Positions 60,769-62,718 of a stretch of 64,000 nt of DNA are shown here, piece by piece; position 1 is the first letter of the stretch; each line of letters starts with the position of its first letter. The stretch lies in contig NZ_CP012545.1 in assembly GCF_004803835.1 (NCBI RefSeq), forward strand, positions 372,001-436,000. Direction: 5' to 3'. The notes beneath the pieces were generated by a model that saw nothing but the letters and a program-made list of their open reading frames with translations, was not told the DNA's origin and did no database searches. A program made the position numbers and the translations under genes. This DNA is from Campylobacter sp. RM6914. GTDB taxonomy: Bacteria > Campylobacterota > Campylobacteria > Campylobacterales > Campylobacteraceae.

Positions 60769-62718
60769 ATGAAAAGCTTTGATACAAAAGTCACATTTCA
60801 ATCAATCAAAAATGACTTTAAGCCATCCGATTCTGCTATTATAGAAGCAGTTGCGAATGCTATTGATGCCAAAAGTAAAAATGTTTATGTAAAACTATAT
60901 GAAGACACTGATAATAGCGGAATGTTTCCATATAATTATTACAGTATTGATGTAGCAGATGATGGAATTGGAATACCAACAAGCGATAATGTGTTTGAGG
61001 AAGTTTTTTGCCAATATAAAGTCTCAACAAAGCACGATAAAGTCAATTATGGCAAAAGAGGCAGAGGTAGATACACCTATCTTAAAATAACCAAAGACCC
61101 TAGCGATATTAGTATATTTGTCGTAAAAGATGGTCAAAAATCTAAAATTTCATTTGAGTGCAAAGACCGACAAAGCGTCGCGATTTTAAAGGATGATTTT
61201 AACAGTCAAATAGATACAAAAATTAAGAAAAATTTCACAACGCTTATACAATTTAAAAATATCTCAACTGATTATTTTGAGACAAATGAACAAAGTTGCA
61301 ATGCCTATGTAGAGTACATCAAAAATGAGCTTGTATCGTATTTTGCAGACAGGATAGCATCAAATAGTATTAATATATACGTTAATGATGAGCTTTTAGA
61401 AATTAAAAATTTTATAGAAAAACAAATGCACGAAACAGTTACTGTTTTAAACGATGATTTGAAATATAGCTTCAATGTTGATTTTTATATATGGAACGAT
61501 AGAGTGAGCTTAAAATCTGACAGACAAAAACATATATTATTTTTAGATGTTAATGGATCATTAAAAGGCATAGCTCCATCTGGCAAGTCTAAACTAATGT
61601 TTCCGGGCTTTAAACAAAATCACTCCATTATAGTCAAGTCACAATATTTTAATGATAGAGATTATATTGACTGTCAAGATGACTACGATAACGTTTTTAC
61701 GGATATTGTTATAAAAAATCTACGAAACCAAATAGCCGTGCGACTTGAAAGCATATTGTTTGGCATTTATAAAGACAATATTGGAAAAATTTCAAAAGAA
61801 TATTTAAAATTTTTAGAGCTACGCAAAGATGAGATCGTAGAAAATACATATCAAGCGATAATATTCCCTTTTTTAGAAAAACTTGGAAATAAAAAAATAT
61901 CTGAAGATGCCAAACAAATTATCGTAAGACTTATAGATGTTTTGCTTAAACAATCTCCCGATAACTATATAGACAACATAATGACTGTGTTAAATTTAAA
62001 GCCAAAAGATAGCGATAAGCTGAGATATATTGAGGCAAATTATGGCATAATCAAAGCCATATCAGAAAAAGAAAAATATATCGCTAGGCTTGATTTTTTA
62101 GAAAAACTCTCAGAGTTAGTAAATGGCAAAAATAGTAAAAAAGTAAAAGAAAGAACAATGTTGCACCATGTCGTAGATAAGCATCTTTGGATATTTGGTG
62201 AGCTGTTTGATGGCATTGATAGAGATAAATACGCCAGTGATGTGTCACTAAAAACGATACTAGAAAGTGATAAATTTTTTCAATTTGATTCAGATGAATT
62301 AGATCTCATTTCTAGGGAGCATAATTTAAAAAAAATACCAGATATTTTTATACCAGTTTTTGCAAATGATACCATTTATATTATAGAACTTAAAAAACCA
62401 GGTGTGACTATAGACCAAAAAATTCTACAAGAAATTATGAATAAATACGTAAAAACACTAAAAGAAATTAGCAAAAGATATGATAACCAGACAAGAAAAA
62501 GGATTTATGCTATAGCCGTTTCTGACACCAAAGCACCAAGTGCCTACACAGTAGGCAACATTGATAACGATGGATTTATGATAATTCCAAAAAGTTGGGA
62601 TGAGATTATTTATGATGCCAAAAAACGATGCAATGAAAAAATTTCTGATATAAATAATAAAATAAAAACTAGCAAATGGAAGGATCTTGAAAGCTTTATT
62701 TTAGAGCATAATCAATAA
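60769..62718 (+). CDS. GHKL ATPase fused to PD-(D/E)XK nuclease-like domain
   Basis: Started at 60769 (AAGG eight bases before; an upstream ATG at 60736 lacks a site) the protein has 649 residues. The N-terminal GHKL ATPase shows Glu26 to Asn30 in IIEAVANAIDA, DDGIGIP (64-70) and YGKRGRGRYTY (94-104), like MutL/Hsp90/MORC. A C-terminal segment has PD (524-525), then E540-x-K542 in IYIIELKKPG, a PD-(D/E)XK nuclease pattern, with a middle helical region. Such fusions suggest ATP-gated DNA cleavage in phage defence. It is a prophage cargo gene read against the tail genes. I do not know a named family. Confidence 0.75.
   Translation: MKSFDTKVTFQSIKNDFKPSDSAIIEAVANAIDAKSKNVYVKLYEDTDNSGMFPYNYYSIDVADDGIGIPTSDNVFEEVFCQYKVSTKHDKVNYGKRGRGRYTYLKITKDPSDISIFVVKDGQKSKISFECKDRQSVAILKDDFNSQIDTKIKKNFTTLIQFKNISTDYFETNEQSCNAYVEYIKNELVSYFADRIASNSINIYVNDELLEIKNFIEKQMHETVTVLNDDLKYSFNVDFYIWNDRVSLKSDRQKHILFLDVNGSLKGIAPSGKSKLMFPGFKQNHSIIVKSQYFNDRDYIDCQDDYDNVFTDIVIKNLRNQIAVRLESILFGIYKDNIGKISKEYLKFLELRKDEIVENTYQAIIFPFLEKLGNKKISEDAKQIIVRLIDVLLKQSPDNYIDNIMTVLNLKPKDSDKLRYIEANYGIIKAISEKEKYIARLDFLEKLSELVNGKNSKKVKERTMLHHVVDKHLWIFGELFDGIDRDKYASDVSLKTILESDKFFQFDSDELDLISREHNLKKIPDIFIPVFANDTIYIIELKKPGVTIDQKILQEIMNKYVKTLKEISKRYDNQTRKRIYAIAVSDTKAPSAYTVGNIDNDGFMIIPKSWDEIIYDAKKRCNEKISDINNKIKTSKWKDLESFILEHNQ

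Follow-up and report, generated by a model that had tools for sequence, protein, structure and literature searches.

The 64,000-nucleotide stretch of Campylobacter sp. RM6914 DNA analyzed here (the window; the genome holding it is 1.78 Mb) contains, at positions 60769-62718 on the forward strand, an intact gene for a 649-residue protein in which a GHKL ATPase is fused to a PD-(D/E)XK nuclease. The gene is enclosed by a complete Mu-like prophage of ~31 kb, which was read past the window edge. The frame is open over 660 codons (60736-62718, forward strand), and the start at 60769 is preferred over that at 60736 because homologues share the same Met ('MKSF...'), which agrees with the length and start given in a preliminary description of this DNA. 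The gene has a G+C content of 29.5%, with a G+C fraction at third codon positions (GC3) of 0.24, and the phage genes have 39-42%. It is convergent with the tail hub gene gpD, 2 bp separating the two stop codons, and a scan for promoters and terminators gave results no better than those for shuffled sequences. The protein is divided as follows.

60769..62718, forward strand: GHKL ATPase - PD-(D/E)XK nuclease fusion (649 residues), paraMORC3/VcSduA-like, from the frame, profiles, invariant residues and models.
60769..61182, forward strand: N-terminal GHKL ATPase domain, residues ~1-138 (E26, N30, D64, G66, G68, G95-R101), from Pfam, PDB profile matches and motifs.
61183..61698, forward strand: predicted S5-like transducer region, residues ~139-310, from the fold of the AlphaFold model and Foldseek.
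61705..62124, forward strand: long helical linker, residues ~313-452, from predicted secondary structure.
62125..62715, forward strand: C-terminal PD-(D/E)XK nuclease domain, residues ~453-649 (E461, D525, E540, K542), from invariant residues, the domain model and PDB matches.

The GHKL motifs noted earlier at the N-terminus are present (E26xxxN30, D64DGIG68, G95KRGRGR101 and TT157-158). In Pfam, the window protein scores 35.9 bits with HATPase_c_3 (cut-off 25, E=8.8e-9) and 29.7 bits with HATPase_c (cut-off 26.4, E=9.2e-7). In a homologue set of 79 sequences, comprising the window protein and 78 relatives from whole-genome and viral collections, E26, N30, D64 and the glycine motifs are kept at 90% or above. 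The family profile matches PDB structures of MutL, PMS2, Topo VI-B and MORC, and Foldseek searches with the whole-protein model (predicted local distance difference test, pLDDT, 81) return the ATPase regions of Topo II, MORC, Topo VI-B, GyrB and MutL. Alignments to the Topo II, Topo VI-B, GyrB and MORC ATPase regions run over 380-490 columns, with the S5 part not isolated in a model of predicted template modeling score (pTM) 0.61. The protein resembles MutL, MORC and Topo VI-B in its GHKL ATPase module, with a predicted S5 part, but differs from them in its C-terminal domain, a restriction endonuclease (RE)-fold nuclease rather than a MutL endonuclease or TOPRIM domain. Assignment as a MutL repair protein was rejected, the NCBIfam mutl model TIGR00585 scoring 15.3 bits against a cut-off of 180.

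At the other end, the nuclease motif reads P524 D525 ... E540 L541 K542, exactly where it had been placed beforehand. Pfam detected no nuclease family in the window protein as a single sequence. Across the homologue set, E461, W474, D525, E540, K542 and W610 are invariant (79/79), and among the 56 relatives scanned, 44 match HSDR_N_2 and 23 the PADLOC REase_II model. The C-terminal domain was folded alone because a search with the whole model shows the GHKL end only. Among the top 30 PDB matches of the isolated domain model (pLDDT 89.7, pTM 0.85), nearly all are PD-(D/E)XK nucleases, including the hantavirus cap-snatching endonuclease, McrC, Shedu, NucS/EndoMS, Nt.BspD6I, Card1 and FokI; a missing nuclease fold, one of the outcomes that the preliminary description had named as fatal to its proposal, was not what was seen. 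The nuclease domain of Bacillus cereus Shedu (8ti9_C) ranks sixth, with a TM-score of 0.50 (by target length) and a probability of 0.97. Since individual matches reach only moderate TM-scores (0.3-0.5), no single closest structure stands out, although the class of fold is clear. The presence of a GHKL ATPase and a PD-(D/E)XK nuclease in one protein is thus confirmed well beyond chance.

The prophage carries genes for a repressor, a Mu-type transposase, a MuB-like ATPase, a MuF-like protein, terminase, portal, head, baseplate, fibre, sheath, tape measure, gpX and gpD. Its end around the fusion gene is arranged as follows.

62721..63692, reverse strand: gpD, Mu-like tail/baseplate hub gene, after which no structural gene precedes the cargo; its Pfam Phage_GPD score of 28.3 bits falls slightly short of the cut-off of 30.1; adjoins gpX.
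60623..60651, reverse strand: 29-bp stub duplicating the gpD 3' end on the far side of the cargo gene; 90% identical to 62723-62751.
~60545..60622, reverse strand: phage right end (TTTTTTAC...ACGAAAAAAGTGAGAAAGGATA), shared with Mu-like prophages that lack cargo in related genomes (comparison with L070, L071, L072, L078, L214 and L216).
59828..60550, forward strand: 5' portion of a DUF262 (GmrSD_N) gene of the host, which the prophage interrupts; the 3' portion is found at the opposite end of the prophage (L018:9050-9508).

Because the right-end sequence sits beyond the fusion gene, the gene lies inside the phage, in ~2.07 kb of DNA between gpD and the right end and opposite in direction to the tail genes, as first described. 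In the six sister prophages used for the comparison, the right end follows within ~80 bp of gpD and is succeeded by host DNA; five others (L073, L076, L077, L079 and L080) have a different type of right end. The gene is therefore cargo of the Mu-like prophage, a moron as had been proposed, being inside the phage ends and absent from sister phages. By eye, the stub is closer to the gpD end found in L081, a second Mu-like prophage in this genome, than to the active gpD end, and the cassette may have been captured through recombination at the gpD 3' end.

That the prophage split the host DUF262 gene follows from continuation of the DUF262 frame past the other prophage end. An intact DUF262 relative that would prove the empty site was looked for and not found, and the prophage flanks share CAAT only, so that an exact target-site duplication is not proved. 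The 3' part of the DUF262 gene is followed by a 237-residue gene with no Pfam match (L018:9050-10211 for both), which looks like a DUF262 partner; the two would form a defence-type pair broken by a prophage with a defence gene of its own.

Close relatives of the window protein were not found by a single-protein scan of genome and viral contigs, nor in INPHARED phage records by tblastn. The gene is absent from 99 other related genomes, and homologues surface only with a wider sample of the phylum. The nearest relative is 59% identical and intact (L020, G397:C1), and sits between genes for an AAA/OLD-like ATPase and a NOV_C nuclease in a type I restriction-modification (RM) cluster (HsdM, HsdS, helicase). 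A profile-search count over 298 genomes (215 matched) was not used, since most of the weak matches (E about 1e-6 to 1e-9, frames of ~610-640 residues) resemble HtpG/Hsp90 and other GHKL proteins.

The preliminary description recognized no named system for this fusion, yet one exists, and the architecture appears in two papers. The paraMORC3 family was defined in 2008 by Iyer, Abhiman and Aravind as GHKL + S5 with a C-terminal RE-fold domain bearing E-D-ExK, with a stand-alone subset mainly in Proteobacteria and Bacteroidetes (PMC2292703); many of the relatives collected here come from these two groups. Against that published description, the window protein agrees in GHKL motifs I-IV and in the C-terminal RE-fold with E-D-ExK, and no difference came to light. 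VcSduA, from V. cholerae VSP-II (WASA), has a GHKL-DUF4263 architecture; it has been compared to paraMORC3 and placed in Shedu type I-D (PMC12137116, 2025, Nature Microbiology). It protects E. coli and V. cholerae from phages; the E27A (ATPase) and K557A (nuclease) substitutions each abolish defence; and cultures carrying it survive at all multiplicities of infection (MOIs) tested, which argues for direct restriction (PMC12137116). VcSduA and the window protein share the N-terminal GHKL ATPase and C-terminal PD-(D/E)XK nuclease in one chain, likely equivalent Glu (E27/E26) and Lys (K557/K542) residues, and a single-gene unit on a mobile island or element (PMC12137116).

As stand-ins for VcSduA, the GHKL-DUF4263 proteins compared were L181, whose GHKL protein has a PF14082 match of 29.1 bits, and seven plasmid homologues. 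In hhalign, the window family (A3) aligns to these proteins (A6) with a probability of 99.9 and an E-value of 6e-36 over 578 columns (4-634 against 5-650); over the nuclease part alone the probability is 97.9, and D and ExK are aligned with their counterparts. VcSduA differs in that its nuclease is of the DUF4263 type, to whose GHKL-bearing stand-ins the window protein is tied by profile comparison only. Canonical Shedu (SduA, PF14082; B. cereus 8ti9) shares the PD-(D/E)XK nuclease core and is not known to have a GHKL domain. None of the 11 sequences of alignment A1 matches SduA_C, and up to 12 of the 56 relatives match PADLOC SduA models; the branch is therefore related to Shedu but lies outside the model.

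Taken with its position, these comparisons make it likely, in our judgement, that the gene encodes an immunity nuclease of the paraMORC3/VcSduA kind that acts as a single-gene unit, and that it is exchangeable cargo occupying the right-end slot of its Mu-like prophage. The RM, ATPase and nuclease genes around the 59% relative speak for this too, as do the defence-type cassettes that other phages have in the slot (see below). Several observations weigh against this. The family is mostly not phage-borne, most relatives being chromosomal. BLASTP between the window protein and a GHKL-DUF4263 protein is insignificant, only profiles linking them, and the window protein matches neither Pfam SduA_C/DUF4263 (PF14082) nor any PADLOC model. 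A crude motif scan found a 5-methylcytosine (m5C) methylase within 1.5 kb of 0 of 87 window-type homologues, so that no self-protecting methylase is adjacent. Shedu by direct Pfam match was accordingly rejected for the window protein, and since the SduA_C model failed and BLASTP was insignificant, it is filed as a divergent paraMORC3 rather than strictly as Shedu. It probably works like VcSduA, and by homology to that protein an anti-phage activity, exerted by an active copy in the window, would be expected. Of the function first suggested, anti-phage or superinfection, defence stands as the best reading; superinfection found no specific evidence.

If the analogy holds, two copies of the protein would dimerize through their ATP-bound GHKL domains, in the manner of MutL/MORC clamps and VcSduA, and the dimer may close around DNA like a clamp. 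The ATP state could be relayed through the S5-like region and the helical linker to the C-terminal PD-(D/E)XK domains, which would then nick or cut invading DNA. The lysogen, and hence the prophage, would be protected from other phages without suicide of the cell. The 0/87 result implies that the branch probably tells self from non-self without methylation, and it is tempting to speculate that DNA ends or topology provide the cue. The GHKL-DUF4263-type plasmid genes (L182-L186, L188, L189), from bacteria and haloarchaea, nearly always lie beside a cytosine-5 methylase (a cytosine methylase adjoins 6 of 7 such loci), which suggests an RM-like unit that sets them apart from the stand-alone branch.

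The space between gpD and the right end is occupied differently in other phages. After gpD, the second Mu-like prophage of the genome (L081, G000:C1:666634-673634) has an AAA_21 ATPase and RloB pair (RloAB), and then a right-end-like sequence. A Dam methylase, with or without a CI-like repressor, fills the slot in L074, L075, L209-L212 and L222, by Pfam test for L074 and by reading of the sequence for the rest. The C. coli conjugative resistance plasmid pSH89 (L182/L228) bears a Mu-like fragment in which gpD is followed by a convergent GHKL-DUF4263-type 'ATP-binding protein' and a cytosine methylase, and the slot closes with 86 bp that share 92% identity with the right end of a sister phage holding Dam and a repressor; the GHKL-DUF4263 and methylase genes take the place of that phage's Dam/repressor. 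A third GHKL-nuclease, 28% identical to the window protein, follows Dam and a repressor near a Mu-like tail region in G158, and a truncated copy lies beside a tape-measure remnant in G200. A more tentative proposal, possible rather than probable, is that the gpD-right-end stretch serves Campylobacterota Mu-like phages as an immunity slot with exchangeable contents, in which two deeply diverged GHKL-nuclease branches, one with a cytosine methylase and one without, RloAB and Dam cassettes take each other's place. Recombination between phages at the gpD 3' end would move the cassettes, and the stand-alone branch would rely on a self/non-self cue other than methylation. The pattern rests on a handful of loci and not on a statistical test.

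Other roles can be envisaged for the fusion protein. In abortive infection, ATP-gated sensing would trigger the nuclease on the cell's own chromosome and the infected lysogen would die. Prophage-borne defences are often suicidal, and the stand-alone branch has no protecting methylase beside it; the survival of VcSduA cultures at all MOIs tested, with a protein of the same architecture, nevertheless renders this unlikely. Alternatively, the protein might be a stand-alone restriction enzyme of Type II or IV character, directed at modified DNA or a specific sequence, with ATP in a structural role only. The HSDR_N_2 and REase_II matches of the relatives would fit such an enzyme, as would the LlaMI-type RM pair adjoining the Psychrobacter homologue, but GHKL catalytic residues are conserved throughout and neither a specificity domain nor a helicase is recognizable, and we regard it as quite unlikely.

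Its place at the phage right end, and the recurrence of GHKL-nucleases in Campylobacterota Mu-like phages (the window, L022, the L026 remnant and pSH89), could also point to a MutL/MORC-like clamp nuclease serving the phage's own transposition, repair or packaging end. Such a role is very unlikely, given that cargo-free sisters (L070-L073, L076-L080 and L214) run from gpD straight to the right end, that the unrelated Dam and RloAB genes fill the slot elsewhere, that most relatives are chromosomal, and that the gene has an A+T-rich, foreign composition and opposite transcription. Loss of function in a decaying cargo would accord with the rarity of the gene, found only in this genome among the 100 relatives examined; with the 649-codon frame intact, all catalytic residues present and the 59% relative also intact, it is the most improbable of the explanations considered. 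A defence role as an immunity nuclease of the paraMORC3/VcSduA kind remains our preferred interpretation.

Further defence-type genes lie outside the prophage. An island downstream of guaA (52480-59500) contains an IS3-type element (~52590-54120), a relaxase fragment, and RM, TIR and caspase genes. Within it, 55911-59319 holds a cytosine methylase and HaeIII endonuclease, whose DNA is 83% identical to that of a Streptococcus agalactiae plasmid, and then a small TIR gene resembling ThsB (57929-58306), with a caspase-domain gene immediately after it (58312-59319). The TIR-caspase pair could be a Thoeris-type system, and the DNA of 55911-59319 was apparently brought from Bacillota. A TGCTTGCAAAATGCTTGCAAA repeat occurs at 52529 and 59365 and may mark both ends of an element that inserted into this region, at the 3' end of guaA; in the relative G008, a second 3' fragment of guaA lies 9.3 kb downstream. 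A single defence island joining the GHKL-nuclease with the HaeIII, TIR and caspase genes was rejected: the HaeIII, TIR and caspase genes belong to a separate element, downstream of guaA and beyond the right end of the phage, and DUF262 is a gene of the host that the prophage has split.

Both the architecture and the system have already been named; what is new is a divergent, phage-borne member and a suggestive right-end immunity slot. The member is missed by PADLOC 2023 and by Pfam SduA_C, and places a divergent branch of the GHKL-nucleases of paraMORC3/VcSduA type on a transposable phage of Campylobacter-type bacteria. As a methylase-free homologue, it could be used to study the gating of a PD-(D/E)XK nuclease by ATP and the discrimination of self from non-self. 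The loci compared here point to a defined slot where transposable phages of Campylobacter-type bacteria would swap defence-type genes.
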